Below are positions 14,242-32,998 of a stretch of 32,998 bases of DNA, piece by piece. The stretch comes from an uncultured Anaerolineae bacterium (GTDB taxonomy: Bacteria > Chloroflexota > Anaerolineae > Anaerolineales > Villigracilaceae), in assembly GCA_903846015.1 (NCBI GenBank), contig CAIMZS010000518.1, forward strand, positions 1 to 32,998, written 5' to 3'. A program made the translations under genes and the position numbers. The notes below the pieces were generated by a model. It worked only from the letters and a program-made list of their open reading frames with translations, was not told the origin of the DNA and did no database searches. Positions within the stretch are counted from its first letter, which is position 1. Each line of letters begins with the position of its first letter.

Positions 14242-14270
14242 TTGCTCCTTTTCACAATCGTGAGTATAAT
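14242..14270 (+). promoter_or_regulatory. Putative promoter of the Zn-dehydrogenase gene
   Basis: TTGCTC (14242-14247) and a perfect TATAAT (14265-14270) are 17 bases apart. One operator palindrome lies inside the spacer and the other begins directly after the -10. Confidence 0.5.
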
Positions 14271-14284
14271 ATCACATATGTGAG
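14251..14284. promoter_or_regulatory. Paired operator shared by the divergent genes
   Basis: TTCACAATCGTGAG (14251-14264) and ATCACATATGTGAG (14271-14284) are inverted repeats 20 bases apart start to start. The pair lies between the divergent promoters and would block both. Half-site TCAC/GTGA matches the operators near 15690, 22583 and 32985. Confidence 0.7.
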
Positions 14285-14285
14285 T

Positions 14286-14314
14286 ATTATACTTGCAGGC
14301 TTCTTATTTGTCAA
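14286..14314 (-). promoter_or_regulatory. Consensus sigma70 promoter of the decarboxylase/epimerase operon
   Basis: On the minus strand TTGACA (14314-14309), a 17-base spacer and TATAAT (14291-14286) match the consensus perfectly. The first operator palindrome begins one base after the -10. Confidence 0.75.
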
Positions 14315-14337
14315 ATCAGAGAAAAAGGCAGATGATC

Positions 14338-15387
14338 ATGCTACCCGATGTTATGCGAGCGGTTGTTTATTTAGGCCCTGAACAGGTCGAATTACGCCAG
14401 GTGCCGGTTCCAGAACCCAAGACAGGCGAACTGCTCGTGCGAGTACGCGCCGCCACCACCTGTGGCACAGATGTTAAAACATATCGACGCGGTCACCCCA
14501 AGTTTCCACCACCTTTTGTATTCGGGCATGAATTTGGCGGGGATGTAGTACAAGTGGGTGCTGGAGTAGAAACATTCCGCGCCGGGATGCGAGTAACCGC
14601 GAATGTTTTTGCCGAGTGTGGAGAATGTTTCTATTGCAAACACGGCCAGGGAAACTTATGCGAGAACCTGGTGTATAACTTTGGCGCTTTTGCCGAATAC
14701 ATGCTTGTCCCGACTTCCATTGTAAAGCGGACAACTTTTGAAATCCCGGCACACGTCTCGTACGCGCAGGCTGCAATCATTGAGCCTTTGGTCACTGTGG
14801 TGGGCGGCCAACGTATCATCGCTATCCAGCCAGGAGAGACGGTGGCTATCCTGGGCGCGGGCGGAGCGGTGGGCTTGCTGCATCAACAGATGGCGCTGCG
14901 GGCTGGGGCGAAACGAGTGATCGCCGTTGGGCACAGCCAGATGCGTTTGCAGGCTGCGGCCAAGTTGGGAGCTGACCCGCTGATTAACGCCAAGGAGACC
15001 GATAGTGTGAAAGCCATCCGCGATTTGACGGACGGTAGAGGTGCGGATGTGGTCATCGAATGCGCTGGTTCACTATCGACCTGGGAGAATGCTGTCCAGG
15101 CAGTGCGCCGCGGCGGGCGGGTGCTGTGGTTCGGCGGGCTGCCCAGCGGTACAAAGATAACCCTGGATACCGGGCTCATTCATTATGGGGCAATCACGCT
15201 GTATAACTCACATGGCGGTACAGCGGATGATGCCCGTGAGGCATTCAGGCTAATCACCAGCGCAGAAGTCGACGTACAGTCGCTGCTGTCCGGTGAATTG
15301 CCCTTGGAACAGGTGGAAATTGCGCTTAAAAAAATGATTGCCGGGGAAGTGATTAAAATGGCGATCAACCCTGATCTGGCTGCCTGA
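14338..15387 (+). CDS. Zn-dependent medium-chain alcohol/polyol dehydrogenase
   Basis: The 349-residue protein is a medium-chain dehydrogenase of the sorbitol/threonine dehydrogenase type. Catalytic zinc ligands are Cys42 (TTCGTD) and His64/Glu65 (FGHEF). The structural zinc is held by Cys94, Cys97, Cys100 and Cys108. A Rossmann fold with GAGGAVG (about 175-181) binds NAD(P). It should oxidise a secondary alcohol of a polyol, sugar acid or sugar phosphate, or do the reverse. AAAAAGG lies 9 bases before the ATG at 14338; nearby ATGs at 14332 and 14353 are alternatives. It is divergent from the decarboxylase/epimerase operon, with a shared operator pair, so both sides are probably induced together. 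Confidence 0.88.
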   Translation: MLPDVMRAVVYLGPEQVELRQVPVPEPKTGELLVRVRAATTCGTDVKTYRRGHPKFPPPFVFGHEFGGDVVQVGAGVETFRAGMRVTANVFAECGECFYCKHGQGNLCENLVYNFGAFAEYMLVPTSIVKRTTFEIPAHVSYAQAAIIEPLVTVVGGQRIIAIQPGETVAILGAGGAVGLLHQQMALRAGAKRVIAVGHSQMRLQAAAKLGADPLINAKETDSVKAIRDLTDGRGADVVIECAGSLSTWENAVQAVRRGGRVLWFGGLPSGTKITLDTGLIHYGAITLYNSHGGTADDAREAFRLITSAEVDVQSLLSGELPLEQVEIALKKMIAGEVIKMAINPDLAA

Positions 15388-15448
15388 CCTGATAGATTAG
15401 AGTTTTTTTATTCAAATATTCGACTTGACTTCAACCGGGGGTCTGATT

Positions 15449-15627
15449 CGTTGTGCATACTGTCATAACGACGCATAAGTGGAAATAATCGGCCACAATT
15501 GTGGGGTCGATCAGGCGGGTATGAAAGACACACCCATTCCTGCGAAGAAATCACCCAAACTACGATCAAAAACGGGGCCTGGAAAACCAGGAAATTGTTT
15601 TAAATATCGATCAACCATGACCCGCCT
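15449..15627 (+). other. Hairpin-rich intergenic region
   Basis: The 349-base gap between the dehydrogenase and the first URO-D gene has no convincing ORF. It contains CGTTGTG/CATAACG (15449-15470), the palindrome CCACAATTGTGG (15493-15504), CCTGG-AAAA-CCAGG (15578-15591) and a long-range pairing AGGCGGGT (15513-15520) with ACCCGCCT (15620-15627). It lies upstream of the operon 1 promoter, so it is not part of that leader. No known riboswitch was recognised. Confidence 0.35.
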
Positions 15628-15658
15628 AAAACCAAAAGATGCGAGTTTTTAAAACCTA

Positions 15659-15687
15659 TTGACTTTTAGATTTTTGTATGCTAAGAT
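15659..15687 (+). promoter_or_regulatory. Promoter of PTS operon 1
   Basis: TTGACT (15659-15664), a 17-base spacer and TAAGAT (15682-15687) form a good sigma70 promoter. The operator pair begins two bases after the -10. Confidence 0.7.
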
Positions 15688-15689
15688 CA

Positions 15690-15723
15690 TTCATATTAGT
15701 GAATAATTATTCACAAATATGAA
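15690..15723 (+). promoter_or_regulatory. Paired operator of PTS operon 1
   Basis: TTCATATTAGTGAA (15690-15703) and TTCACAAATATGAA (15710-15723) are imperfect palindromes 20 bases apart start to start. The junction itself makes the perfect palindrome GTGAATAATTATTCAC (15699-15714). The spacer TAATTA resembles CAATTA at the operon 2 operator. Confidence 0.68.
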
Positions 15724-15736
15724 TTCGGAGACCAGC

Positions 15737-16897
15737 ATGCTAGAGACGATGACACCCCGGCAACGCGTAGAAGCCACACTCAACCATAAAGAGCCCGACC
15801 GCGTCCCGATTACATTGGGAGGTTCGGCTAACCATCTGACTGAACAACGTTATTTTCTTTTACGCGATCACTTTAGGGTCACCGATGTTCCGCGACGGAC
15901 GCTGGTGGGGTTTTACACAACACCGGATTACAACCCGGTATTGGACAAACTGGGCACCGACTTTCGTTTTGTTCACATGCGCCCTCCAAGCAGTTACATT
16001 TCCAACCCCATGGTGGGAGAATTCAAAGAATTTATTGATGAATGGGGTTTGCATCACCGGCTTGTCTCCGGTTATTACGATATGGGTGGAGCCCCCCTGG
16101 CCAAAGATTTAAGCAAAGAAAGCATCGAAAAATTCCCCTGGCCAGACCCTTATGACTCAGTGCGAGTTATGGGGCTAAAAGAAGAAGTCGAAAATCTTTA
16201 TCACAATACTGATTATTCAATCGTCGCCCACCGACCGGTTTACGGCAACCTGTGGGAAATGGTGCGCTCGCTTGTTGGCATGGAAAATGCATTAATAATG
16301 ACCACGCTGGATACAGTCATGTTTGAATACCTGCTTGGGAAATTAGCTGAAATCCAGGATGCATTTTATGATGCCTTCCTGACGGTTGTCGGGCCTTATG
16401 TTCAGATTGTGGAGATGGCCGATGACTATGGCACAAATGTCGGCCCAATGTTCAACCCAAAGGTATATAAGAAATTCTTGATGCCTCATTATAAGAAGAC
16501 TATCGAAATGATCAAGAAAAAAGCACCGCATGCAAAAGTTCTTTTGCATAATGACGGCGCAATCCGCAAGTTCATACCTGATTTAATCGAGACTGGCTTT
16601 GATGTTCTCAATCCAATCGAAGCGCACCTGGTGGGTATGAATCCGGTCGAACTGAAACGTGATTTTGGCAACGACATCACGTTCCAAGGCGGAGTAGATA
16701 TTAAGCACGTACTGACAAATGGCTCAATTGAAGACGTTCGCAGCGAGGTGCGCCTGCGGATCGAACAAATGGGCGTTGGAGGTGGCTACATCCTTGCTCC
16801 GGCGCACAACTTCGGAAATGATATTCCACTGAAAAATATGCTGGCTTTCTTTCAGGCCGGACACGAACTCGGTTATTACCCTCTCCAGGATAAATAA
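15737..16897 (+). CDS. Uroporphyrinogen decarboxylase-like (URO-D superfamily) protein, paralogue 1
   Basis: The 386-residue protein belongs to the URO-D/methyltransferase superfamily (COG0407-like). It has the N-terminal TPRQRVEATLNHKEPDRVPI segment, the barrel motif LLHNDGAIRKFIPDLIETG, then VLNPIEAHLVGM and the C-terminal GGGYILAPAHNFGNDIP. The zinc-binding His-x-Cys...Cys of MtaA/MtbA-type methyltransferases is absent (HNDG instead), and true HemE is unlikely because the locus is about sugars. Function unknown. Relatives of this type are often found next to sugar aldolases and SorC regulators. The ATG at 15737 is preferred to 15719 because GGAGA lies upstream and 15719 falls inside the second operator. 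First gene of PTS operon 1; it ends one base before the aldolase start codon. Confidence 0.85.
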   Translation: MLETMTPRQRVEATLNHKEPDRVPITLGGSANHLTEQRYFLLRDHFRVTDVPRRTLVGFYTTPDYNPVLDKLGTDFRFVHMRPPSSYISNPMVGEFKEFIDEWGLHHRLVSGYYDMGGAPLAKDLSKESIEKFPWPDPYDSVRVMGLKEEVENLYHNTDYSIVAHRPVYGNLWEMVRSLVGMENALIMTTLDTVMFEYLLGKLAEIQDAFYDAFLTVVGPYVQIVEMADDYGTNVGPMFNPKVYKKFLMPHYKKTIEMIKKKAPHAKVLLHNDGAIRKFIPDLIETGFDVLNPIEAHLVGMNPVELKRDFGNDITFQGGVDIKHVLTNGSIEDVRSEVRLRIEQMGVGGGYILAPAHNFGNDIPLKNMLAFFQAGHELGYYPLQDK

Positions 16898-16898
16898 T

Positions 16899-17561
16899 AT
16901 GATCCTCGAAGAACTTCGCCAGAAAGTTTTGGATACTGCGAACTTGCTGCCAAAGTTTGGTCTGGTGTGGATGGCGGGCGGCACTGTTTGTGCGCGTGAC
17001 CCACAAACAGGTTACGTGATTGTTACGCCCAGTGGCATGCCTTATGAAGCCCTGACCGCATCAGATATGATCGTGACAGATATCAACATGAATCTTATAG
17101 AAGGAAAAAACCGGCCCTCAGTTGCACTTAACTTGTGGACCGGTTTTTTGTTAGCACGACCGGATATTAACGCAGTCGTGCATACCCATTCTGCGTATGC
17201 GACGGCATTTTCTGTCATCAATGAATCGATCCCGATCATCACCGAAACACAAGCGGACTGGTTCGGCCAACCAATACCGGTTGCCCCTTACCTGTCTGTT
17301 GAGGATAAACGCTTTTCAAGCCTGCCCGTGGAAGTGATGGGGACTGGTTTCGCCGTCCTGTTGGGCCAGCATGGTCCCATCACAGTAGGTAAATCGCTCG
17401 AGCATGCTCTCGAACGGGCCGTTACATTGGAAGAAGCCGCGCACACCTATGCCATTGCCAGAAGTATCGGCAATTCGCTGATTTTCACTGATCAGATGGC
17501 GCGTAGTTCATTTGATTATTATCACAACCGCTATGGACAACGCAACGAAAATCTCGATTAG
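16899..17561 (+). CDS. Class II aldolase/epimerase (AraD/FucA) family protein with altered active site
   Basis: The 220-residue protein has the class II aldolase zinc ligands His95 and His97 (VVHTHS) and His159 (LLGQHGPITVG). Overall spacing matches FucA/AraD, which cleave or epimerise sugar phosphates. Two sites are unusual by motif alignment. The phosphate-binding GNxS loop reads GGTVCARD. The PSSE/PSSD segment that carries the catalytic acid (Glu73 in FucA) reads PSVA, so Ala76 sits where the acid should be. It may have a different reaction or use another residue. AGGA lies about 8 bases upstream of the ATG, one base after the URO-D stop. EIIA follows 12 bases later. Confidence 0.85.
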   Translation: MILEELRQKVLDTANLLPKFGLVWMAGGTVCARDPQTGYVIVTPSGMPYEALTASDMIVTDINMNLIEGKNRPSVALNLWTGFLLARPDINAVVHTHSAYATAFSVINESIPIITETQADWFGQPIPVAPYLSVEDKRFSSLPVEVMGTGFAVLLGQHGPITVGKSLEHALERAVTLEEAAHTYAIARSIGNSLIFTDQMARSSFDYYHNRYGQRNENLD

Positions 17562-17573
17562 GAGCAAAACCCT

Positions 17574-18035
17574 TTGCTGGCTTTCAATGAATCATCTGTA
17601 ATGATAGATCTGGATGCGCCTGACGCGCACACGGTTATCAGTCTCCTGGCAGAAGCCCTGCACATCCAGGGCCTGGTCTCGGCCGATTATGGCAAGCAGA
17701 CCTGGACCAGAGAGCTTGAACATCCCACCGGGCTGCCAACAAAACCATTCTCCATCGCATTCCCACATGCGGACGCCGAGGGAGTTCATCAATCTGCCCT
17801 GGCAGTCGCCATCTTGCGCAATCCGATTAAGTTTCAAAATATGGGCGATCCGGATGAAACCCTGGATGTCTTTATTGTTTTGATGCTGGCAAATAAGAAT
17901 CCGGAAGAACAAATTCAAACCTTGAGAAATTTGGCCATGCTTTTTGGCCAACCAGAAAAGCTGGTCGAATTACGTGACCTGACCACCAACCAGGCAGTTA
18001 CAGCCTGGCTGAAGCAAGAGCTTCTTCTGAACTAG
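17574..18035 (+). CDS. PTS EIIA component, galactitol/fructose type
   Basis: The 153-residue protein is a PTS EIIA-2 domain. His65 in SIAFPHADAEGV is the phosphorylated residue that receives phosphate from HPr and passes it to EIIB Cys9. The AFPH form of the motif is like galactitol-family GatA rather than mannitol EIIA. Start is TTG, with AGGAG about 9 bases upstream overlapping the end of the aldolase gene. It is cytoplasmic and the first of three separate EII polypeptides; a 117-base gap to EIIB holds a hairpin and a possible 27-codon ORF. Confidence 0.9.
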   Translation: MLAFNESSVMIDLDAPDAHTVISLLAEALHIQGLVSADYGKQTWTRELEHPTGLPTKPFSIAFPHADAEGVHQSALAVAILRNPIKFQNMGDPDETLDVFIVLMLANKNPEEQIQTLRNLAMLFGQPEKLVELRDLTTNQAVTAWLKQELLLN

Positions 18036-18040
18036 AAATG

Positions 18041-18063
18041 TTCCGGGTGATCACACACCGGAA
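18041..18063 (+). promoter_or_regulatory. Hairpin between EIIA and EIIB
   Basis: TTCCGG (18041-18046) pairs with CCGGAA (18058-18063), with an inner GTG/CAC pairing around ATCA. A strong Shine-Dalgarno AAAGGAGG follows at once. No T-run, so it is more likely an mRNA processing or stability element than a terminator. Confidence 0.5.
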
Positions 18064-18072
18064 AGGAGGTCA

Positions 18073-18156
18073 ATGGCAAGCGTAGTTCGTTATTTTTGTC
18101 CCACGCAAGCTGAAACAGGTAGTATTTTTTTCACAAGGAGGCAAAGGAACCGATGA
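18073..18156 (+). CDS. Possible 27-codon small ORF ahead of EIIB
   Basis: An ATG preceded by AAAGGAGG (3-base gap) opens a 27-codon frame starting MASVVRYF and ending RRQRNR. Its TGA overlaps the EIIB ATG as ATGA. The product is basic at the C-terminus. The last part of the frame contains the EIIB ribosome-binding site. It could be a leader peptide coupling translation of EIIB to upstream events, or chance: an open frame of this length is not improbable. No homologue is recognised. Confidence 0.35.
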   Translation: MASVVRYFCPTQAETGSIFFTRRQRNR

Positions 18157-18452
18157 GTAAATTAATTGTTGTTGCATGTGGTGCAGGAATCAATACATCA
18201 ACCATTGCGGAAGATTCTATAAGGGAACGGGTAAGCCAGGAAGGTATGTCGGACGTACTGGTCAAACGGATTTTGATGGCTGACATCGATGGCTATCTTG
18301 ACCGAACAGACCTGATCATGGTTGTCTCCATGATGAAAATCTTCCGCACCTTTAAAGTACCCGTTTTTCAGGGCATGCCTTTCTTGATTGGCTCAAAACA
18401 GGAAAGAGATGCGCTCTTAGACAAGATCGTCGCAGAAATCAAAAAAGTGTAA
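18153..18452 (+). CDS. PTS EIIB component, galactitol (GatB) type
   Basis: The 99-residue protein has the EIIB phosphocysteine loop VVACGAGINTSTIAED. Cys9 accepts phosphate from EIIA His65 and donates it to the sugar as EIIC transports it. The CGxGxxTS pattern and short length match GatB-like EIIB of the galactitol family. AAGGAGG lies 13-19 bases and AAAGGA 5-10 bases upstream of the ATG. A 46-base gap containing the small hairpin CGGATC/GATCCG (18455-18470) separates it from EIIC. Confidence 0.93.
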   Translation: MSKLIVVACGAGINTSTIAEDSIRERVSQEGMSDVLVKRILMADIDGYLDRTDLIMVVSMMKIFRTFKVPVFQGMPFLIGSKQERDALLDKIVAEIKKV

Positions 18453-18454
18453 AC

Positions 18455-18470
18455 CGGATCACATGATCCG
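18455..18470 (+). promoter_or_regulatory. Small hairpin between EIIB and EIIC
   Basis: CGGATC (18455-18460) and GATCCG (18465-18470) form a 6-bp stem with loop ACAT just before the EIIC ribosome-binding site. It may tune relative expression of EIIB and EIIC. Confidence 0.4.
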
Positions 18471-18498
18471 AAATTAGATTTTCAAAGGAGAATGTAAA

Positions 18499-19794
18499 AT
18501 GGGAATCCTATCTACTGCTGTTGGTTGGTTACTTAGCCTCGGCTCGTCTCTGATCGTGATGCTCGTACTGATCGTCCTCGGTCTGGTCTTCCGAGTAGGC
18601 TGGCAGAAGGCTGTTCGTGGCGGCATCACCACTGGCGTTGGCCTGGCTGGCTTGTTCCTGGTAGTCAATGTGATCGTCGGAGCCTTGCAGCCGGCTGTGG
18701 CCGAAATGGCTACCAGATTTGGCATACAAAAAACACTCGTCGACGTCAACTGGGCCGATGCGGGCATTGCCTGGGGTTGGCCCGGAGTGGCTGGCCTGAT
18801 CGTGTCGATCTTGATCGTCAATATCCTGATGCTGGTGCTCAAGCTGACCAAGACCCTGTGGACCGATGTCTGGTCCTACTGGCATGGTTCTGCTCTCGCC
18901 GGCTTCGTCTGGGCTCTAACGGGTGGCAACATATTCCTAGGCATACTTGCTGGCGTCTTATATTTGGTGGCAGGCAGCCTGATGAGTGATATGACAGCCA
19001 AGAAATACCAGGAATTCAATGATATGCCAGGTATTGGCGTGCCCTGCGGCACTACCGTCCAGGCCAGTTTATTCGCAATGCCAGTTGTGTGGTTGTTAGA
19101 CCGCATTCCCGGCCTCAAAGATTGGGATGCGTCCCCAGAAGGTATCAAGAAACGCTTTGGCCTGGTGGGTGAACCCGGCGTTATGGGTTTCCTGCTGGGA
19201 ACCGTTATCGGCATCTTCGCCTACGGTACCGGAACTGGTGATCTGGGCATTGCCAAGATCCTGGGATTGGGCATGAATGTGGCTGTCATGATGATGATCC
19301 TGCCCCGCATGGTCTCAATCATTGCCGAAGGCATCATCCCGATCACGATGTCGATCGTTCAATACATGCGAGAACGCTTCAAGGATCGTGAGATCTATGT
19401 GGCGGTTGACTGCGCCGTGTTATTGGGCCATCCGGCTGTAATGGCTTCCACAATCATCCTCTTCCCGCTGCTTGTTCTGCTTGCGGCGGTTCTGCCCGGC
19501 GTGCAAATGCTGCCGATTGCCTCCCTGGCTGCCGTTCCCTTCTGGGCCGGCGCAGTAGTGCCTTACACCAAGGGCAACGTAGTAAAGACCGTGATCGTAC
19601 TCTTGCTCTATGCGATCCCCTTCATGTACTTATCAACCTGGAGCGCCACGTCACACACAGCAGCATTCCAGATGATGGGCCAATATGGTGATCAGATTGG
19701 TCAGGGCCTGAAGCTGGCCAGTTGGGACATGGGCGGTGATATTCTGGGCAACATCATCCAGGGTGCCTTCCGTTTGTTTGGTTTTGGGGCCTAG
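18499..19794 (+). CDS. PTS EIIC permease, galactitol (GatC/SgcC) type
   Basis: The 431-residue integral membrane protein has about ten to twelve hydrophobic segments and the galactitol-family EIIC pattern. This includes the N-terminal LVFRVGWQKAVRGGITTGVG, the YWHGSALAG loop, GEPGVMGFLLG and the C-terminal LLGHPAVMAST segment. It binds the sugar outside and presents it to phospho-EIIB during transport. Family members carry galactitol, and relatives carry pentitols and other polyols, so the substrate cannot be read off. GGAG lies upstream of the ATG. The gene is followed by a large stem-loop. Confidence 0.93.
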   Translation: MGILSTAVGWLLSLGSSLIVMLVLIVLGLVFRVGWQKAVRGGITTGVGLAGLFLVVNVIVGALQPAVAEMATRFGIQKTLVDVNWADAGIAWGWPGVAGLIVSILIVNILMLVLKLTKTLWTDVWSYWHGSALAGFVWALTGGNIFLGILAGVLYLVAGSLMSDMTAKKYQEFNDMPGIGVPCGTTVQASLFAMPVVWLLDRIPGLKDWDASPEGIKKRFGLVGEPGVMGFLLGTVIGIFAYGTGTGDLGIAKILGLGMNVAVMMMILPRMVSIIAEGIIPITMSIVQYMRERFKDREIYVAVDCAVLLGHPAVMASTIILFPLLVLLAAVLPGVQMLPIASLAAVPFWAGAVVPYTKGNVVKTVIVLLLYAIPFMYLSTWSATSHTAAFQMMGQYGDQIGQGLKLASWDMGGDILGNIIQGAFRLFGFGA

Positions 19795-19817
19795 TAGTTC
19801 AACCATAATTTAATATT

Positions 19818-19888: not shown

Positions 19889-19910
19889 TTCATAACTAGA
19901 ATTTATCTTT

Positions 19911-19933
19911 GCCCGTGCAGAACCGGGTACCAT
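19911..19933 (+). repeat. AGAAC-loop hairpin repeat, copy C
   Basis: CCCG/CGGG around TGCAGAAC, followed by TACCAT. It lies immediately upstream of the ribosome-binding site of the EIIB-like gene. Confidence 0.62.
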
Positions 19934-19947
19934 ATCAGGAGACTGCC

Positions 19948-20262
19948 ATGTCAAAATATCGCATATGCGTAATCGGTGGCTGGTGTGGCAACCGCTTAGT
20001 CATGGTTGCAGAACATCTCGATGAATTATTGCAGAAGGCAGGTTTTCCCTGCCAGGTGAAAAGCCACAGCGTTTGGGAAAACTTTAACCAACCCCCAACC
20101 TCCAACCTGATCTTGCAACTGCTGCCAGCCTTCACTGAGGCCGAAACCGGCTGCCCGATCATCAATGTCAGGCCTTTCCTGATTGATATCGATCATCCAC
20201 AGACAATGGAAAAAATCTTCACGCAAATCAATCACGATTATTCCACGGTGATTCAGCTCTAG
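19948..20262 (+). CDS. Degenerate EIIB-like small protein
   Basis: The 104-residue protein begins KYRICVIGGWCGNR and has an alternating beta-alpha layout ending in PIINVRPFLIDID and a C-terminal helix. This closely mirrors the fold order of galactitol EIIB (compare PVFQGMPFLIGS in the neighbouring EIIB). The phosphocysteine loop is altered: a Cys is present but displaced, and the CGxGxxTS pattern is lost. It may be a regulatory or sugar-sensing EIIB paralogue rather than a phosphocarrier. AGGAG lies 6 bases upstream of the ATG. It is flanked on both sides by copies of the hairpin repeat. The family assignment is inference from pattern only. Confidence 0.55.
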   Translation: MSKYRICVIGGWCGNRLVMVAEHLDELLQKAGFPCQVKSHSVWENFNQPPTSNLILQLLPAFTEAETGCPIINVRPFLIDIDHPQTMEKIFTQINHDYSTVIQL

Positions 20263-20271
20263 ATTCCAACT

Positions 20272-20297
20272 GGCCCTGCTAGAACGGGCACTATCGG
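20272..20297 (+). repeat. AGAAC-loop hairpin repeat, copy D
   Basis: Identical over 26 bases to copy B. It occupies most of the 42-base gap between the EIIB-like gene and the cysteine desulfurase gene. Confidence 0.7.
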
Positions 20298-20304
20298 GAT
20301 AAAA

Positions 20305-21447
20305 ATGCAAAGATACATATACCTGGATTATTGCGCCACAACACCTGTCCATCCTGATGTGCGTGCCGCCATGCTGAAAACGCTGGATGATGATTTTGGC
20401 AACCCATCCAGCATGCATTCTTTCGGAAAAACTGCGGCGCAAATCATTGCAGGAGCCCGGGCAGAAGTTGCCTTGGGGTTGGGCTGCAGCCCGGAAGAGA
20501 TCATTTTTACAAGCGGCGCCACCGAATCCGACAACCTGGCTTTGTTGGGCACAATGCGCCAGCGGCAACCAGGCAAAGCTCATTTCATCACAACATCGAT
20601 CGAACATCATGCTATTTTGCACACTGCCAGGCAGTTGCAATCCGAAGGTTATGAGATTACAATTCTTCCAGTCGATCAACGCGGTCTGCTTAATCCCGCA
20701 GATGTGCGTAATGCCATCCGACCGGATACAATGCTGATTTCGGTAATGCTGGTTAATAACGAGGTAGGTTCAATCCAACCAGTTCAAGAGATCGGAGAAA
20801 TTGCCCGGGAAAATGGGGTTTTATTTCATACAGATGCCGTTCAAGCGGTCGGATTGCTGGATGTAAATGTCCAAACCCAAAACATTGATCTGCTCTCGCT
20901 CTCAGCTCATAAAATTTATGGACCGAAGGGTGTGGGGGCCTTATTTGTTCGCAAGGGTGTGCGCCTGGCACCGCTCGGTTTCGGCGGTTCACAGGAAAAC
21001 AGCATGCGGCCTGGCACCGAAAACGTGCCCGGTATTGCCGGGTTAGGCGCAGCCATGCACCTGACAAACCAGCACAAAACCGGCGAAAGGGAACGCCTTG
21101 CCCGTTTGCGCAGTAAGTTGATTTCCGGGCTGCACGAACGAATTCCGGCCTTGATCGTTAATGGGCCGTCAAATGCTGATGCGCACGTGCTTTCGTTGAG
21201 TTTTCCAAACGCCGACGGCGAAATGATGCTTATTCGCCTGAATGGAGCCGGAATCGCGGTTTCGATGGGTTCTGCTTGTACTTCAAAGGACATTGAACCA
21301 TCACATGTTCTGACTGCCATGCATATGCCGCTCAACCAGATCGATGGTACCCTGCGAATTTCGTTTGGATACCCGACAACCGAGGCTGAGATCGATGTCT
21401 TATTAGAAATACTGCCCGATGTTTGGCACAGGGCAAAGAACAACTGA
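20305..21447 (+). CDS. Cysteine desulfurase (NifS/IscS-like)
   Basis: The 380-residue PLP enzyme has the class V aminotransferase features of cysteine desulfurases. These are YLDYCATTPVHP at the N-terminus, the His of SIEHHAIL stacking on PLP, Lys203 (SAHKIYGPKG) as the Schiff-base lysine, and Cys325 (GSACTSKD) on the mobile loop that takes the persulfide. The GSQENSMRPGTEN segment departs slightly from the usual QERGLRSGTEN. These enzymes supply sulfur for Fe-S clusters, thiolated tRNA or cofactors. Its place between PTS genes and a SorC regulator is odd; it could supply lipoate or thiamin sulfur for the dehydrogenase complex in operon 2, but that is speculation. No scaffold gene (IscU/NifU) is adjacent. 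Confidence 0.9.
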   Translation: MQRYIYLDYCATTPVHPDVRAAMLKTLDDDFGNPSSMHSFGKTAAQIIAGARAEVALGLGCSPEEIIFTSGATESDNLALLGTMRQRQPGKAHFITTSIEHHAILHTARQLQSEGYEITILPVDQRGLLNPADVRNAIRPDTMLISVMLVNNEVGSIQPVQEIGEIARENGVLFHTDAVQAVGLLDVNVQTQNIDLLSLSAHKIYGPKGVGALFVRKGVRLAPLGFGGSQENSMRPGTENVPGIAGLGAAMHLTNQHKTGERERLARLRSKLISGLHERIPALIVNGPSNADAHVLSLSFPNADGEMMLIRLNGAGIAVSMGSACTSKDIEPSHVLTAMHMPLNQIDGTLRISFGYPTTEAEIDVLLEILPDVWHRAKNN

Positions 21448-21464
21448 ATGGAGCTGCTGTCGCA

Positions 21465-22433: not shown

Positions 22434-22469
22434 TCACAACTTCCATTTTGATACATTCAAATTTACCTT

Positions 22470-22555: not shown

Positions 22556-22584
22556 TTGACAATGACGGCATAGCTTGCTATACT
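22556..22584 (+). promoter_or_regulatory. Promoter of operon 2
   Basis: TTGACA (22556-22561), a 17-base spacer and TATACT (22579-22584) match the sigma70 consensus well. The operator overlaps its last two bases. Confidence 0.78.
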
Positions 22585-22616
22585 CACGTATGTGAACAAT
22601 TACTCACATACGTGAC
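22583..22616 (+). promoter_or_regulatory. Paired operator of operon 2
   Basis: CTCACGTATGTGAA (22583-22596) and CTCACATACGTGAC (22603-22616) are 14-bp palindromes 20 bases apart start to start. A further half-site TTCACATAT lies at 22621. Confidence 0.75.
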
Positions 22617-22655
22617 TGATTTCACATATCTAAACCTCTCTGCCAGGAGATGATA

Positions 22656-24819: not shown

Positions 24820-24844
24820 AACTCTATTCATAAACGAGGTTTCA

Positions 24845-26837: not shown

Positions 26838-26838
26838 T

Positions 26839-28299
26839 ATGCCCATTGCCTTTATCATGCCCAAAGTTGACATGGATCAGGAGAAAGCCACCATTATCTC
26901 CTGGTTAAAAAATGAGGGCGATTTCATAAAAATGGATGAAACCGTTCTCGTGGTCGAGACTGAAAAGGTTGCGATTGATATCACTGCGCCTGCCACCGGA
27001 ACGCTGGTGGGCATTCGTTTCAAAGATGGTGACGTTGTTCCTATTGCGCAGGTGATCGCATATATTTTGAAAGAAGGTGAGTCAACCAATGATTTACCAG
27101 TTAACGCGGCACCACCAGCCCAACCTGTTGTCATACCCATTAATCCCACGCCTGCTGCTCCCGCACCGCAAACTCTGGAAGCCGCTCAGACCGCTGTCAT
27201 CCCCACATCCGTTCCCGGACAGGTCATGACGCATACTGCCACTCCCATTGCAATGCGAATTGCGAAAGAAATGGGCATTGATATCAGCCAGGTGCCATCT
27301 TCCAGTGAACGCATCACTCGCGAAGATTTGGAACGCTTCATCCAGAGCCGCGCTCAGGCGCCTGACCTGAAAATAGCCCCTTACGAGGGCCAGGACTACG
27401 CCGCAAAAATTAGCGCCACTCCAGCCGCGCGGCGTCTCGCCCGAGAAACGGGTATCGAATTAGGCTCCATTACAGGCAGTGGCCCTCAAGGCCGCATCCA
27501 GGCCACAGATGTTGTTTCCACATCTCGTGCAACTGCGCCGGTAACGACCTCGGCGACAGCCATGCCTGAACGCCCGGCAATCTCTGCCCCCAACCCTGAG
27601 CGCCCTGCCCAGATCGTACCGCTGGCGGGCATGCGCCTGAAAATTGCACAGCGCTTACAGGCTAGCTTTCAAGAATCGCCGCATATCGCCCTGACCGTGG
27701 AAGCTGATGTGACCCGCCTGGAGGCAGCGCGATCTCACATGAACACAATTGCCACGCGTGAAAAGACTGGCAAGATTTCGCTTACTGCCTTGTTGGTCAA
27801 GGTGGTTGCCTGGGCCCTGGAGCGTAATCCGTATATTAACGCCTCCCTGATAGACAACCAGATTTACCTCTGGCAGGATGTCAATATTGGCGTGGCAACT
27901 GCGCTTGAAGATGGTTTAATTGTGCCTGTCATTCACAAGACCAGCCGCCTTTCTGTTCGCCAGATTGCAGACGCTCTTGGAGATTTGAGCGCCCGCGCCC
28001 GCGCGGGTCGACTGGCTTTATCCGATGTGCAGCGCGGCACCTTCACCATTTCCAATTTGGGCATGTTCGGTGTCCAGCAATTCCGGGCTGTCATCAACCC
28101 ACCAGAGAGTGCCATTCTGGCGGTTGGCGCAGTGGTACGGAAACCAATAGTCGTTGACGAGCAAGACACTGTTGCCGTGCGCCCAATAGTGACCCTGACC
28201 ATCGCTGCAGATCACCGTGTAATTGATGGCGTTATAGCAGCGCGCTTTCTGGCAGATCTGGTTCAGGGCATTGAGTTCCCTGAAACACTGCTTTATTAA
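26839..28299 (+). CDS. Dihydrolipoamide acyltransferase (E2) with two peripheral-subunit-binding-like segments
   Basis: The 486-residue E2 has one lipoyl domain (1-78, lipoyl Lys43 in VETEKVAID), then a Pro/Ala linker. Two segments resembling the peripheral-subunit-binding domain follow, at about 134-171 (ATPIAMRIAKEMGIDI...ITREDLERF) and 192-227 (ATPAARRLARETGIEL...GSGPQGRIQATDV). The catalytic domain (about 255-486) has the active site DHRVIDG (His459, Asp463). It moves the acyl group from lipoate to CoA. The first binding segment lacks the GTGxxGR loop and may be degenerate; most E2 proteins have only one. The ATG follows the E1 beta stop by one base. Confidence 0.92.
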   Translation: MPIAFIMPKVDMDQEKATIISWLKNEGDFIKMDETVLVVETEKVAIDITAPATGTLVGIRFKDGDVVPIAQVIAYILKEGESTNDLPVNAAPPAQPVVIPINPTPAAPAPQTLEAAQTAVIPTSVPGQVMTHTATPIAMRIAKEMGIDISQVPSSSERITREDLERFIQSRAQAPDLKIAPYEGQDYAAKISATPAARRLARETGIELGSITGSGPQGRIQATDVVSTSRATAPVTTSATAMPERPAISAPNPERPAQIVPLAGMRLKIAQRLQASFQESPHIALTVEADVTRLEAARSHMNTIATREKTGKISLTALLVKVVAWALERNPYINASLIDNQIYLWQDVNIGVATALEDGLIVPVIHKTSRLSVRQIADALGDLSARARAGRLALSDVQRGTFTISNLGMFGVQQFRAVINPPESAILAVGAVVRKPIVVDEQDTVAVRPIVTLTIAADHRVIDGVIAARFLADLVQGIEFPETLLY

Positions 28300-28309
28300 G
28301 GAGATCTCC

Positions 28310-28585
28310 ATGCTTCAAACAAAAATCACTGTTACCAATAAAGTTGGTTTGCACGCCCGCCCGGCCTCATTATTCGTACAGGTGGCAAATAAGTGTGCAT
28401 CCAATATCACGGTTTGCAACCTGACCACAAATGGCAAGCCGGTAAACGCAAAGAGCATTATCAGCATCCTGACTTTAGGAGTCATGCAGAATCACGAGAT
28501 TTTGATCCAGGCAGATGGTCCGGATGAAGTAGAAGCCCTCGAGAAGCTTAAGGCATTAGCCCTGGGCAATTTTGGAGAAAGCTAA
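28310..28585 (+). CDS. ptsH: PTS phosphocarrier protein HPr
   Basis: The 91-residue protein has the active-site motif GLHARPAS with His15, which takes phosphate from EI and gives it to EIIA. A Ser49 in NAKSIISIL matches the regulatory Ser46 of Gram-positive HPr, although no HPr kinase gene is seen here. AAGGAGA lies upstream of the ATG at 28310. Its stop overlaps the ATG of EI by one base (TAATG). It is 10 bases after E2, so it is firmly within operon 2 rather than a separate pts operon. Confidence 0.94.
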   Translation: MLQTKITVTNKVGLHARPASLFVQVANKCASNITVCNLTTNGKPVNAKSIISILTLGVMQNHEILIQADGPDEVEALEKLKALALGNFGES

Positions 28586-30342
28586 TGGCCCAGGTTCCGC
28601 ACGAGGTGGCCCCGGAACTTTTTCTTCAAGGCATTGCCGCCAGTGATGGCATCGCCATCGGGCCTGCTTTCCTTTACGCGGTTCAAGAGCTGACGATTCC
28701 AGCCCGGCCTCCAGGACAGCCCAACGTCGAAATTGCGCGCTTCATCTCTGCGAGTGAGCGGGCGCGTTTGGAGCTGAAAAGTCTGCGGGAAAGCGTTCTG
28801 CTGCGTATCAAAGGCGAGGAACTGGCAGCCATCTTTGATGCACACCAAATGATGCTGGAAGATCCGCTGCTGACAGAAAAGGTCAACACCAAGATCGCGA
28901 GTGGCCTGACCGTGGAACAAGCCGTCGCCGAGGCAACGCGTGAACTTGCCGAATTGCTCGCCTCGATGCAGGATGAACTCTTTGCTGCCCGCGCAGCCGA
29001 TGTGCTGGATGTTGGGAACCGAATTTTGCGTATTCTGCTCGGCTTGCCAGATACTGCCTTGAACAACTTGCAAGCCCCAGCCATCATCATTGCCCAGGAT
29101 TTAACACCCTCCGACACTGCCAGACTGGACCCCGAATTAGTCCTGGGGTTTTGCACCGCTGTTGGGGGCCTGACTTCGCACAGCGCCATCCTGGCACGCA
29201 CACTTGGGATCCCGGCTCTGGTAGGCATGGGTGCCAATTTACTGGAGACAGTCAAACTGGATGATTCGCTCTTAATGGATGGTTCGACCGGCCTATTGAT
29301 TGTTGATCCGACCCAGGAAACAGTTTCAGAATATCGTGAAATCAAACGCAAGAAAGATGCCCTTATGGTGGGCATAAAGGCTAATGCCCAGAGCGAGGCC
29401 CACACAGCCAATGGACGTCATGTGGAAGTGGCTGCAAATATCGGCGAAGTGGAGACGGCGCTGGAGGCCGTTGAGTATGGGGCAGAAGGTGTTGGCTTAT
29501 TGCGCACGGAATTCCTATACTTAAGCGAAACACGCGCACCGGATGAAGACAAGCAATTTGAAATTTACAAAGAAATATTCAATGTAATAGGCCCGCGCCC
29601 GCTCATCATTCGAACGCTGGATATCGGCGGAGATAAGCCGCCTTCCTATATGCCATTTCCAAAAGAAATGAACCCATTCCTGGGCTGGCGCGCAATCCGA
29701 ATGTGCATGGACGACACTGGTTTGTTTAAAACCCAACTGCGCGCCATTCTACGCAGTGCAGTTGGACATGACATCCGCATCATGTTTCCCATGATCATCA
29801 GCCTGGATGAATTGTTATGCGCCCGTGGTCTGATTGCCCAGGTAGAAAACGAGCTGGCTGAAGAAGGGAAACCCTTCGCAAAAAATGTGCCGGTCGGCAT
29901 CATGGTCGAAACACCGGCAGCTGCTATCCTGGTGGATGTGCTGGCCAGCGCCTCAGACTTCTTCAGCCTGGGAACAAATGACCTGACCCAGTACACATTG
30001 GCGGTTGACCGCGGAAACGAAAAGGTCGCTGGTCTGTTCCAACCGCTGCACCCGGCGGTACTGCGTCTCATCAAGCTGACTATCGATTCCGCCCACAGCA
30101 AGGGCAAGTGGGTAGGCATGTGCGGCGAACTGGCTGGAATGCAAAAAGCCATTCCTATTTTACTGGGACTGGGCCTGGATGAATTCAGCATGGCATCTCG
30201 TTCCATCCCCATGGCCAAGCATTTGATAGCAAAACTCAGTGACGAAAGGGCTCAAGAAATTACAGCGCACGCTCTTTCACTGCCAACGGCTGTTGAAATC
30301 GAAGACTACATGAAAACCGTGCTGGCTGAACTGGAAGACTGA
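28585..30342 (+). CDS. ptsI: Phosphoenolpyruvate-protein phosphotransferase (PTS enzyme I)
   Basis: The 585-residue protein has the EI domain order. This is an N-terminal GIAASDGIAIGPAF segment, the HPr-binding helical region, the phospho-His domain with His199 in GGLTSHSAILAR, and a PEP-binding barrel. The barrel carries LLRTEFLYL, RTLDIGGDK, GTNDLTQYTLAVDRGN and the late active-site Cys513 (GMCGELAGM). It moves phosphate from PEP to HPr His15. Length is typical. It starts at the last base of the ptsH stop. It pairs with HPr to energise the galactitol-type EIIABC of operon 1, which has no other EI in this window. Confidence 0.95.
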   Translation: MAQVPHEVAPELFLQGIAASDGIAIGPAFLYAVQELTIPARPPGQPNVEIARFISASERARLELKSLRESVLLRIKGEELAAIFDAHQMMLEDPLLTEKVNTKIASGLTVEQAVAEATRELAELLASMQDELFAARAADVLDVGNRILRILLGLPDTALNNLQAPAIIIAQDLTPSDTARLDPELVLGFCTAVGGLTSHSAILARTLGIPALVGMGANLLETVKLDDSLLMDGSTGLLIVDPTQETVSEYREIKRKKDALMVGIKANAQSEAHTANGRHVEVAANIGEVETALEAVEYGAEGVGLLRTEFLYLSETRAPDEDKQFEIYKEIFNVIGPRPLIIRTLDIGGDKPPSYMPFPKEMNPFLGWRAIRMCMDDTGLFKTQLRAILRSAVGHDIRIMFPMIISLDELLCARGLIAQVENELAEEGKPFAKNVPVGIMVETPAAAILVDVLASASDFFSLGTNDLTQYTLAVDRGNEKVAGLFQPLHPAVLRLIKLTIDSAHSKGKWVGMCGELAGMQKAIPILLGLGLDEFSMASRSIPMAKHLIAKLSDERAQEITAHALSLPTAVEIEDYMKTVLAELED

Positions 30343-30351
30343 GTAGATAAA

Positions 30352-30993
30352 ATGTCGATCTATATTGATTCGGCTATATTGAAAGAGGTCGAGGCCGCTC
30401 AATCCCTGGGCTGGGTGCGCGGAGTAACCACCAATCCGATACTTCTCGCCCGGGCCGGCGCTGACCCAGGTGAAGTCTTGAGCGCACTGGCACAGCTAAA
30501 ATTCGAGCAGCTTTTTTATCAATTGGTTTCGCCCACCCTGGAGAGCATGTACCTGGAAGCACAGTTGATTGCGAAAATAGCAGGGAACACCCTGGTATTG
30601 AAGCTGCCACCGAACCAGACCGGTTTCCAGTTTACCAGCCGCTATGGAAATCAATTTCTTTGCTGCGTCACGGCTGTCTACAGTCCGGCGCAAGCGCTGG
30701 TAGCGCGCGAAGCTGGGGCACGTTATGTGGCAGTATATGTCAACCGGGCCACGCGGCTGATGGGCAACGGGTATCAGTTGGTGGAAGATGTAACCAACAT
30801 GCTGCGCGGCAGTCAGACAGAACTCATTGCCGCCAGCATCAAATCCTCTGAAGAAGCCTGTCTGTCTGTGCTGGCAGGAGCACAGCACTTGACCCTGCCC
30901 TTCAGCGTGCTCACCGGCCTGATGTCCCACCCGCTATCCGAAGAAACACTGGCAGAGTTCCGCGCTGAAGGGACCGGCGTTGTTCACCCCTAA
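30352..30993 (+). CDS. Transaldolase-like protein (fructose-6-phosphate aldolase/TalC family)
   Basis: The 213-residue barrel starts with the family motif IYIDSAILKEVEAA and WVRGVTTNPILLA. It has Lys84 in LVLKLP, aligned with the Schiff-base lysine of fructose-6-phosphate aldolase, and a C-terminal AASIKSSEEACLSVLAGAQHLTLP. It should split or join a ketose phosphate through a lysine adduct. Many members of this small family have unknown substrates. The ATG is 9 bases after the EI stop, with no strong Shine-Dalgarno, so it depends on coupling. Its stop lies inside the terminator stem that closes operon 2. Confidence 0.86.
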   Translation: MSIYIDSAILKEVEAAQSLGWVRGVTTNPILLARAGADPGEVLSALAQLKFEQLFYQLVSPTLESMYLEAQLIAKIAGNTLVLKLPPNQTGFQFTSRYGNQFLCCVTAVYSPAQALVAREAGARYVAVYVNRATRLMGNGYQLVEDVTNMLRGSQTELIAASIKSSEEACLSVLAGAQHLTLPFSVLTGLMSHPLSEETLAEFRAEGTGVVHP

Positions 30994-31020
30994 CCTGACC
31001 GATGATGGTTAGGGGTGAAC
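30982..31020. terminator. Bidirectional terminator between convergent genes
   Basis: GTTCACCCCTAACC (30982-30995) and GGTTAGGGGTGAAC (31007-31020) form a 14-bp perfect stem with an 11-base loop. The T-run is weak on both sides, but the position between the TalC-like and oxidoreductase 3' ends supports the call. Confidence 0.8.
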
Positions 31021-31024
31021 AATT

Positions 31025-32008
31025 TCAGATGGGTTTCGAAAAAACCCATTGTGCACGAATCTCGTCCAGCGTCTTCATAATTTCCAAAGTTTGATCAAGC
31101 GGCATGATCTCACATTCCATCTTTCCCTGCTGGATACAATCCATCACGGCGCAAGCTTCGTACTCGTAGCCAGTGTAATGATTTAGCGGCATGGCAAACA
31201 CTTCTGGTTGTTGCCCTTCGCTATAGAAAGTCATCCGGGTTGGTTTGTACCACGGATCATGAATTTCGATTCTTCCCTGGGTGCCGAAGATAACCGCTTC
31301 TTTATAATCATAAGAAATCTGTGAGCAGGTGATCGTAACGATCTGACCGGCTGGATACTTAAGGAGGGAAGCTGACGAGTAATCTGCGCCTGATTCGCCA
31401 AAAAAAGCCAGGCTCTTTACCTGTTCCGGTTTTCCAAACAGGCTGTAAGCCCAGGAAACGCCATAAGAACCAGTATCCATCATCACGCCCGCGCCAAGAC
31501 GGAGATCAAAGAAACGGTTGTTCAAGTCGTAGGGTGGTTTTGCCATAAAGTTGATCACCATTCCGGTGACATCTCCGATGGCTTTTTGCTCCAACATTTC
31601 TCGGATTTTGACATGGATAGGGAAGAAGCGTGTCCACATCGCCTCCATCAAAAAGAGGTTTTTTTGGCGCGCCAGCAATATTAATTTTTCAGCTTCTTGA
31701 GCATTTGCAGTAAAGGCTTTTTCACACAGAACATGCTTGCCCGCAGCGAGGCACATACTAACATCGCGTAGGTGGAACACGCCAGGCGTACCCACATAAA
31801 CAATCTCAACATCAGGGTCATCGGCTACAGCCTGATACTCGGTGTAACATCTGGGGATATCGTATTTTTTTGCAAAAGCCTGGCCCGTTTCTAAACTGCG
31901 CGAGCCGACAGCCAAAAGCTCGGCTCGATCCGGGATGTTCTTTAGCGCAGTTGCAAACCTGTTTGCGATTTTTCCTGTGCCAAGAATGGCCCATTTCATT
32001 TTTTGCAT
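31025..32008 (-). CDS. Gfo/Idh/MocA family NAD(P)-dependent oxidoreductase
   Basis: The 327-residue protein has an N-terminal Rossmann fold (WAILGTGKIANRF, about 5-17), the family segment VGTPGVFHLRDVS, the EK signature (CEKAFTANAQEAE) and the C-terminal alpha/beta domain starting at GMVINFMAKPPYDLNNR. These enzymes oxidise or reduce sugar and cyclitol hydroxyls. Substrate unknown. AAAGGAGG lies upstream of the ATG at 32008. It is 56 bases after the surE stop on the same strand, so it may share a transcript with surE. Its proximity to the PTS locus suggests a role with the same sugar class, but it has a separate strand and no operator pair. Confidence 0.88.
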   Translation of the reverse strand: MQKMKWAILGTGKIANRFATALKNIPDRAELLAVGSRSLETGQAFAKKYDIPRCYTEYQAVADDPDVEIVYVGTPGVFHLRDVSMCLAAGKHVLCEKAFTANAQEAEKLILLARQKNLFLMEAMWTRFFPIHVKIREMLEQKAIGDVTGMVINFMAKPPYDLNNRFFDLRLGAGVMMDTGSYGVSWAYSLFGKPEQVKSLAFFGESGADYSSASLLKYPAGQIVTITCSQISYDYKEAVIFGTQGRIEIHDPWYKPTRMTFYSEGQQPEVFAMPLNHYTGYEYEACAVMDCIQQGKMECEIMPLDQTLEIMKTLDEIRAQWVFSKPI

Positions 32009-32064
32009 ACCTACCTCCTTTAAAAAACACTGGCTGGTCCCCGGTCATTGCACGGGATTAATGG

Positions 32065-32877
32065 TTATCTGCTCGACTCCACTAATTTTTGCAGATCGAG
32101 AAGATCGGTGCGCGAGCTGCAGTCCAGGCTGAGAGGCGTGATGGATACAAACCCCTTCGCCAACGCATGGGCATCTGTACCGATTCGGGTGAACTGGCCT
32201 TTCGCGACCGAAGTTTCAAATAGCTGATCAGGTTTTAGCTCCCCTGAAGACCTGATGATTCTGAGGGAGTAATATGAGAGTCTGTCCTGACGAGTCACCA
32301 CCCAGGGGCTGTCCGGAGTGGAATTTTTTGGAATTTCAATTTTTAACACATCCACATCTGCCGGGAACGGCTTACCCAACATGCGTCCAGCAAAATAATT
32401 TGCAAAATGCATGGCTGAACGAAAATCAACCGATTCATCGTGCTTAAAAAACTCCCCATTTTCTATCTCAAGGGAAACAGTCATAGCTGGAATCCCACGA
32501 TCTGCCGCCTCCAAGGCAGCTCCAATGGTTCCGGAAACCGTGACACACGAACCAATATTTTCCCCGTAATTAATACCTGAAATTGCCAGGCTGATGGGGC
32601 GTGAGGCAAGTACCTGCAGGGCATATTCAACCACCAATGCCGGCGTTGCCCGAACAGAGAACCCATCCCAATATTTTTCTCCAAATCGGACTTTCTGTGG
32701 GATGATCTGCCCATCCCGGTCAGACAGCCGGGTCCGGCTGCGTCCCATACTGGTCTGTTGCTCAGCCGGGGCAGCGATCAATAACTCACCTAACGGATCA
32801 AGGGCAGCAACAAGAGCTGCCAAACCGGGAGATTTAATCCCATCATCATTGGTTACAAGAATAAGTGGGCGTTCCAT
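32065..32877 (-). CDS. surE: 5'/3'-nucleotidase SurE
   Basis: The 270-residue protein has the SurE metal site LVTNDDGIKSPG (Asp11, Asp12), the AAPAEQQTSMGRS loop with its conserved Ser, and the ISGINYGENIG motif with its Asn. Together these bind a divalent metal. The enzyme removes phosphate from 5' and 3' nucleotides. The ATG at 32877 has AAAGGA about 5 bases upstream; the ATG at 32916 lacks a site and would add residues outside the family. It appears to head a two-gene unit with the oxidoreductase. Confidence 0.93.
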   Translation of the reverse strand: MERPLILVTNDDGIKSPGLAALVAALDPLGELLIAAPAEQQTSMGRSRTRLSDRDGQIIPQKVRFGEKYWDGFSVRATPALVVEYALQVLASRPISLAISGINYGENIGSCVTVSGTIGAALEAADRGIPAMTVSLEIENGEFFKHDESVDFRSAMHFANYFAGRMLGKPFPADVDVLKIEIPKNSTPDSPWVVTRQDRLSYYSLRIIRSSGELKPDQLFETSVAKGQFTRIGTDAHALAKGFVSITPLSLDCSSRTDLLDLQKLVESSR

Positions 32878-32956
32878 ATTTCCTTTCTCAATCTCTATAC
32901 TTTCCAGACTGTTCATATCAGGAAAAAACAGCTTGAATTAATCTTCTATTAAGGTA

Positions 32957-32985
32957 TTGACAATTATGCAAACTTGAATTAGTAT
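32957..32985 (+). promoter_or_regulatory. Outward promoter at the right edge
   Basis: TTGACA (32957-32962), a 17-base spacer and TAGTAT (32980-32985) form a good plus-strand promoter directed to a gene beyond the window. An operator copy overlaps the -10. Confidence 0.68.
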
Positions 32986-32998
32986 TCACATACGTGAA
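32985..32998 (+). promoter_or_regulatory. Operator copy at the right edge
   Basis: TTCACATACGTGAA is a perfect 14-bp palindrome and the closest to the consensus. It ends exactly at the window edge, so a second copy 20 bases on, as in the other operators, cannot be seen. The sequence 20 bases upstream (32965-32978) matches only at 9 of 14 positions. Confidence 0.7.

Follow-up and report, generated by a model that had tools for sequence, protein, structure and literature searches.

We analysed a stretch of 32,998 bases (the window) from an uncultured Anaerolineae bacterium, corresponding to bases 1-32998 of contig C518 in a genome bin of 6.5 Mb (662 contigs, 97.4% complete, 5.9% contaminated), which holds a sugar phosphotransferase system (PTS) gene cluster with two SorC/DeoR-type regulator genes and, at its promoters, recurrent paired palindromes that are predicted to be operators. 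The right end of the window is the end of the contig (locus L007, 1514 bases, without right flank). On the minus strand, the cluster has genes for an rpe-like epimerase and a HUMPS-family protein, the latter resembling hexulose-phosphate synthase and ketogulonate-phosphate decarboxylase (12895-14237). On the plus strand follow a zinc-binding dehydrogenase, adh (14341-15387); a UROD1-family protein, a class II aldolase/epimerase and the galactitol-type PTS components IIA, IIB and IIC (15737-19794); an unnamed protein of about 100 amino acids and a NifS/IscS-type cysteine desulfurase, which in relatives also stand between IIC and SorC (19948-21447); the regulator SorC1 (21423-22433, its true start probably being the ATG near 21465, after the nifS stop); a UROD2-family protein (22650-23810); the regulator SorC2 (23830-24819); and the E1-alpha, E1-beta and E2 components of a 2-oxoacid dehydrogenase, HPr, PTS enzyme I and a transaldolase/FSA-like protein (24845-30993).

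Three intergenic regions of the cluster each contain two 14-bp palindromes, laid out as 5-bp half-sites around a 4-bp centre with a core of TCAY-N4-RTGA, and in each region the pitch between the two copies is exactly 20 bp, or roughly two turns of the helix (14251/14271, 15690/15710 and 22583/22603). An earlier sequence-only reading of this DNA had described these pairs together with a further palindrome at the right edge, and all seven 14-mers were confirmed in place. Predicted operator pair 1 (14251-14284, no strand assigned) lies between divergent genes, and its region was aligned across 10 chosen loci including the window, all of which have TATAAT in the linker. Predicted pair 2 (15690-15723, plus strand) precedes UROD1 and the PTS operon and was aligned across 13 chosen loci including the window; its sites at 15690 and 15710 are each one strict core base short (TCAT, ATGA). 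Predicted pair 3 (22583-22616, plus strand) stands before the UROD2-SorC2-E1/E2-HPr-EI-FSA genes and is followed by a degenerate third site at 22621-22634. The copy at the right edge, at what had been counted as a fourth promoter, is a perfect palindrome as reported (32985-32998, no strand assigned), although only this one palindrome is visible and any second copy would lie off the contig.

Matches to TTCACATACGTGAA with at most three mismatches number 15 in the window against 2.64 expected, a count reached by 0 of 100 shuffles. Over the full 6.5 Mb of the genome, the degenerate pair TCAYNNNNRTGA-N8-TCAYNNNNRTGA is present at exactly three places, all in the window (reversed control, 0); one further genome place (C655) is added when one mismatch is allowed, and two strict TCAC-N4-GTGA sites 1-28 bp apart are found only at the 14252 and 22584 pairs. 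Across the genome, single palindromes with at most two mismatches barely exceed the control (forward 12 versus 9, reverse 11 versus 8), from which it follows that the signal resides in the pair. That near-background count is the point in favour of a chance clustering of AT-rich palindromes around promoters; the fixed pitch of the pairs, their confinement within the whole genome and their conservation across families all speak against it, and we judge this explanation refuted by the cross-genome scans described below, leaving it a negligible probability. The sequence-only reading had also called chance unlikely, and had raised the question of whether the motif is common at unrelated promoters; outside the three window sites, the genome has no exact pair. 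A one-mismatch single site at C512 (L008) was set aside, as no partner 20 bp off could be seen by eye.

A promoter scan of the window for sigma70-like sites, run without a shuffled control, gave a site with a 17-bp spacer at each of these regions. The pair at 14251 lies between two divergent promoters: a perfect TTGACA-N17-TATAAT on the minus strand (14286-14314, sigma70-like, with -35 and -10 at 14314 and 14291), which belongs to the HUMPS-rpe transcript and serves the gene ending at 13581, and a plus-strand promoter towards adh (14242-14270), whose weak -35 (TTGCTC) overlaps the Shine-Dalgarno sequence of the minus-strand gene and whose -10 (TATAAT, 14265) falls between the two palindromes. 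The remaining promoters, on the plus strand, are TTGACT-N17-TAAGAT (15659-15687, sigma70-like), TTGACA-N17-TATACT (22556-22584), the last base of which is the first base of the operator core, and TTGACA-N17-TAGTAT (32957-32985, sigma70-like), which reads off the contig. The earlier description, in which each pair sits at or just after a -10 box with a 17-base spacer, stands as regards the spacer and has to be amended at 14251, where a single pair is shared by two divergent promoters; the three pairs together thus account for four promoters, to which the edge site would add a fifth.

The same register recurs among 42 pair sites, at 34 of which TTGAC lies 28-33 bp upstream of the core on either strand (23 of these at 28-29 bp), while no 6-base distance bin outside 24-35 bp, out to 120 bp, has more than five TTGAC; the distances in the window are 31 (14252, minus strand), 32 (15691) and 28 (22584). 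The operator therefore mostly starts at the last -10 base or a few bases later. The SorC family includes regulators described as activators, and a SorC protein acting on the pairs as an activator or dual regulator would accord with the weak -35 of the plus-strand promoter at 14242. In most loci, however, the start site lies within the stretch covered by the pair, which overlaps the -10 or comes after it, a placement that would suit blocking, and with a TTGAC -35 in register at 34 of the 42 sites an activator is seemingly not needed, so we hold activation to be distinctly improbable.

Searches with the two SorC proteins found 21 named loci, of which 16 are from Chloroflexota and several are labelled Anaerolineales. 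Many relatives keep a common cluster order (rpe-HUMPS, pair, adh, pair, UROD1, aldolase, PTS IIA-IIB-IIC, small protein, nifS, SorC, E1a, E1b, E2, HPr, EI), to which FSA is added in some, and where the genes are kept the pairs are conserved at the same promoters. In three loci (L047, L053 and L158), the fetched stretch is without the adh-PTS part and the pair stands directly before the SorC and 2-oxoacid dehydrogenase genes; L057 resembles these, with distant PTS genes further away. The presence of a pair directly before SorC where the adh-PTS part is missing indicates that the predicted operator seems to travel with the SorC gene.

Genome-wide scans of relatives covered 152 genomes of the family and 400 of the order. 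The exact degenerate pair was present in 17 of the 152 family genomes, and any SorC gene in 34. In 13 family genomes there is a SorC that shares 54% identity or more with SorC2; the exact pair is present in 11 of these, compared with 6 of the remaining 139 (Fisher p 5e-11, the sets having been entered by hand), and the other two of the 13 (G073 and G125) have a pair with one strict mismatch. The scan of the order for the strict pair yielded 18 sites, spread over 13 genomes, and one site for the reversed control. Twelve of these sites fall within this cluster in seven genomes of the family (G093 has its SorC gene on a different contig), and the other six, from six genomes of two other families, are each directly upstream of a SorC-like gene; every one of the 18 is thus either inside the cluster or immediately in front of a SorC-like gene. 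One of the six out-of-family genomes, G347, appears to be the genome of L047.

In a first tree of 55 SorC proteins, a single 22-row clade (support 100/98) takes in all 17 pair-labelled rows and both SorC proteins of the window, and the pair label requires 2 changes on the tree versus 14.7 in shuffles. A second tree places the full-length out-of-family SorC proteins encoded beside the pair in G403 (SorC1-like), G385 and G392 in the same clade (25 rows, 100/99); the SorC genes that follow the pair in G306, G338 and G403 were not placed. The five unlabelled rows of the clade comprise L054, with a two-mismatch 20-bp pair and a 22-bp pair, and L056, L058, L059 and L060, with pairs at 21-22 bp. The label of L114 refers to a pair located elsewhere in its genome, on the contig of L128, where a non-clade SorC is found as well, and L159_2, the other SorC of G392, was wrongly labelled pair-bearing in the second tree, so that its place outside the clade is no counter-evidence. 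The sequence-only reading had linked the paired sites to the local SorC regulators and had suggested scanning related genomes with the paired motif; with 18 sites in 13 of 400 genomes and a pair that tracks one SorC clade, the whole-genome scans support that link.

The same scans bear on whether a regulator of another family (CRP/FNR- or LacI/GntR-like, for example), encoded elsewhere, binds the palindromes while the SorC genes are merely neighbours. The GTGA-N8-TCAC inside the pair is superficially like a CRP site, and an incomplete genome bin could conceal a distant regulator gene. The CRP site is TGTGA-N6-TCACA, however, and the spacing is N8 rather than N6 in all three window pairs, a departure from the CRP/FNR pattern; a global regulator would have many sites, whereas the genome has three exact pairs. 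A SorC-like gene adjoins the pair in all six genomes of the two other families, and the 26 loci scanned from other SorC clades yielded no pair at a tolerance of one mismatch. We consider a regulator from outside the SorC family very improbable.

Besides the near-background count of single palindromes and the solitary copy at the contig edge, several observations weigh against reading the pairs as operators of a SorC protein. No SorC gene was found in 6 of the 17 family genomes with the exact pair, three of these six sharing one near-identical sequence, and in G073 two pairs are on a contig with a non-clade SorC (L128) while the clade SorC is on another contig. The SorC gene behind the perfect pair of G306 (L157, about 9587-9883) is a frame of 158 amino acids with an N-terminal match only, and in G338 and G403 the contig ends within the SorC gene that immediately follows the pair. 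The tree labels of L053 and L057 refer to two-mismatch pairs. No in-register TTGAC is present at 8 of the 42 pair sites, and the UROD1 site of the window is imperfect, with its promoter (15659-15687) 4 bp off the commonest register of the relatives. With two mismatches allowed in all, the clade loci have one additional pair at 24 bp, and the loci of other clades have one at 21 and one at 30 bp. Finally, the cross-genome loci are related (L050 and L124 are near-copies) and the counts are not independent.

Only two PF04198 genes were found in the genome, SorC1 and SorC2, which are 47% identical and both located in the window cluster. The PF04198 sugar-binding domain scores 190.9 and 215.1 bits in the two proteins (cut-off 27), and both align with nearly the whole DeoR model at 181 and 189 bits; as these scores are far under the equivalog cut-off of 420, the proteins are not DeoR itself and are described as SorC/DeoR-type, with no specificity assigned. 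When compared with PDB entries, SorC2 aligned from the N-terminal region to residue 323-324 with SorC (2w48), DeoR (8r7y) and LsrR (4go1), so that Klebsiella SorC and E. coli LsrR, the latter serving a signal-uptake system, are full-length structural homologues. CggR chains match SorC2 at residues 75-323 only, that is, in the sugar-binding domain, and the CggR-type DNA-binding domain was not seen in this comparison.

The two regulators differ at the position equivalent to Arg39 of DeoR (hand-assigned from the alignment): SorC2 carries Arg there (R45), SorC1 has Thr, and the SorC1-like protein of G403 has Ser. Arg39 contacts bases in the full-length DeoR structure, although one chain of an earlier structure makes a backbone contact only (PMC11229326). 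Because SorC2 keeps this arginine and SorC1 has it replaced, SorC2 is the better candidate and, on sequence grounds, most likely the binder of the pairs; the sequence-only reading had put forward both SorC proteins, which fits SorC2 and leaves SorC1 doubtful.

Gene order is also informative here. Most full-cluster relatives have a single SorC between nifS and E1a; the order at that spot is SorC1, pair, UROD2, SorC2 in the window, and in G403, from another family, it is nifS, SorC1-like (57% identical to SorC1), pair, SorC2-like. SorC1 and SorC2 may accordingly be imagined to form mixed tetramers, in which a SorC1 without the base-contacting arginine would sense the sugar and read little of the DNA. 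The Thr or Ser at the Arg39 equivalent, the grouping of the two SorC1-lineage members (support 100/100) and the side-by-side position of SorC1 and SorC2-like genes in both genomes, with the pair between them, would agree with such an arrangement. On the other side, only two genomes are involved, other residues could read DNA, and Arg39 of one chain touches only the backbone in one published DeoR structure (PMC11229326); we regard mixed tetramers as rather unlikely.

Taking these results together, it is very probable that the pairs are operators of a tetrameric repressor of SorC/DeoR type encoded in the cluster, most likely SorC2, which would be released by a sugar phosphate. What the DNA itself shows is a set of paired sites that are confined to the cluster, conserved, in register with promoters and found together with one SorC clade, while the tetrameric state, the repression and the sugar-phosphate effector are suggested by homologues. 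The proposal of the sequence-only reading that the cluster forms one local regulon with a shared operator agrees with an exact pair that is confined to the cluster and conserved in relatives. In the SorC2 repressor model, one dimer would bind each 14-bp palindrome through its helix-turn-helix, and two dimers joined through their sugar-binding domains would form a tetramer across both palindromes. In the commonest register, the operator would extend from the last -10 base to about 30 bp into the transcribed region, and RNA polymerase would be blocked; at the divergent site, a single tetramer would silence two transcripts. The effector may be a phosphorylated intermediate of the sugar imported by the PTS, as suggested by the family and by the PTS genes, and it would loosen the complex, with derepression of the uptake and breakdown genes and of the gene of the regulator itself.

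One tetramer per pair is proposed because DeoR and CggR act as tetramers on operators of two half-operators at a similar pitch (PMC11229326), the repeat pitch being 22 bp for DeoR and 20 bp for CggR when counted on the sequences printed in that report. B. subtilis DeoR (dra-nupC-pdp operator; 8r7y) is like SorC2 in domain layout and helix-turn-helix subfamily, and its operator likewise has two tetramer-bound half-operators, each of which can be read as 5-4-5 over 14 bp, the right one being degenerate (PMC11229326). It differs in its half-site (TGAAC/TTTCA, versus TTCAC/GTGAA here), in its pitch (22 versus 20 bp) and in its position at -60 to -21, compared with at or after the -10 for the present pairs (PMC11229326). 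The gapA operator of B. subtilis CggR (8r3g) shares with the window two palindromes at a pitch of exactly 20 bp, both covered by the CggR tetramer (PMC11229326), but it lies downstream of the start (+32 to +77), further downstream than the pairs described here (PMC11229326), and CggR has another DNA-binding domain and the half-site CGGGAC.

The pitch was counted in two sets of 26 loci, one from the clade (396 kb; it includes L128, whose SorC is not a clade member, and L033, which lacks SorC) and one from other SorC clades (398 kb), leaving out the near-copies L101, L107, L110, L112, L116, L121, L122, L127 and L148, as well as L114, L115, L125, L061-L065 and other short loci. With at most one mismatch, the clade loci have 28 pairs at 20 bp, 3 at 21 and 2 at 22, the rest of the range examined (13 to 40 bp) being empty, and the loci of other clades have no pair anywhere in that range; with two mismatches in all, the clade counts at 20, 21 and 22 bp become 30, 5 and 2. 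The constant pitch of the sequence-only reading is therefore accurate for all three window pairs at 20 bp and does not extend to some clade members, in which it is 21-22 bp.

Another SorC clade (L095, L096 and L098) has TGAAA-N4-TTTCA pairs (that of L095 at position 334) at an 18-bp pitch, which start 42-48 bp before the SorC start. The TGAAA pair with at most one mismatch is present in 2 of 152 genomes (G057 and G113), both times before SorC, with none in the control, and G064 (L098) has it with two mismatches. Among the matches listed in a de novo scan for perfect pairs were the TGAAA pair of L095 and single matches in L106 and L125. In the 180 bases or fewer upstream of 37 SorC genes, compared with eight rough shuffles each, nine genes scored above all shuffles: L047, L058 and L060 of the TCAC clade, L095, L096 and L098 with TGAAA at a pitch of 18, and L102, L103 and L106 by one point. 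The scan missed the pitch-22 pair of L056, which is further upstream, and L059 was not above its shuffles; in L113, L130, L108 and L119, the upstream pairs are suggestive and did not exceed the shuffles in this 37-gene scan. These last four lie upstream of SorC genes of further clades, with TGCAC/TGAAC-like pairs at 21 bp and TGAAT/TGTAA-like pairs at 18 bp. A perfect TGAAA-N4-TTTCA pair at 19 bp is also seen at L125:4317, between PTS genes, and in G306 the operator pair persists beside an apparently shortened SorC gene.

The distribution suggests that pitch is a clade-specific property, the second clade being represented by three loci. Tentatively, and with what we would put at just short of an even chance, SorC tetramers may read a two-part address, in which the recognition helix sets the half-site and the dimer-dimer geometry sets a pitch that evolves by clade. 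On that reading, to which we attach the same slightly less than even expectation, TTCAC would be the half-site of one clade, for the most part with a 20-bp pitch; a group nested within that clade would have TCAC with a pitch of 21-22 bp, and a further clade TGAAA with one of 18 bp. If true, the 18-bp pitch would turn the second dimer to a markedly different side of the helix, and a clade-dependent pitch makes the flexibility of the dimer-dimer link in the SorC tetramer a testable question.

To our knowledge, transcriptional control in Chloroflexota has been little studied, and the present analysis gives a sequence-supported predicted operator and local regulon for regulators of this phylum; it also means that regulated promoters can be predicted from DNA alone in uncultured genomes. 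No description of the operator sequences, of SorC regulation in Anaerolineae or of this regulon was found in the open-access literature, searched by titles and the starts of abstracts and not extending to subscription papers or regulon databases. The motif, the regulon and the clade-dependent pitch (18, 20 and 21-22) are, provisionally, undescribed. This agrees with the sequence-only reading for the motif and regulon and departs from it for the principle, as paired operators under SorC tetramers are already published (PMC11229326): the two-part operator is known from CggR and DeoR, and the half-site address and the regulon appear to be new.

Several features of the cluster genes deserve mention. 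The galactitol-type PTS, the HUMPS-like protein, the epimerase and the AraD/FucA-like protein lead us to the speculative suggestion that the PTS substrate is either a polyol or a sugar acid and that it is converted to a pentulose phosphate. The protein of about 100 amino acids (19948-20262) had no counterpart in Pfam or NCBIfam; judged by eye, it looks like a PTS IIB-like domain whose cysteine is shifted, and it is found between PTS IIC and nifS, at 40-66% identity, in the fetched relatives that span this stretch. The adjoining NifS/IscS-type cysteine desulfurase (20305-21447) is conserved within the sugar PTS operon for no obvious reason. A search for the gene past the contig edge by way of SurE homologues was dropped, the best identity outside the window copy being 47%. 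SurE and GFO-family genes lie downstream of SorC in L059 (10001-14170) and also at the right end of the window (31025-32916), and they may belong to the regulon. Two proteins of the uroporphyrinogen-decarboxylase family occur within this sugar regulon, at 15737-16897 (UROD1, with weak methyltransferase matches) and 22650-23810 (UROD2), and a relative 51% identical to UROD2 adjoins the SorC and dehydrogenase genes of G385 (L158).

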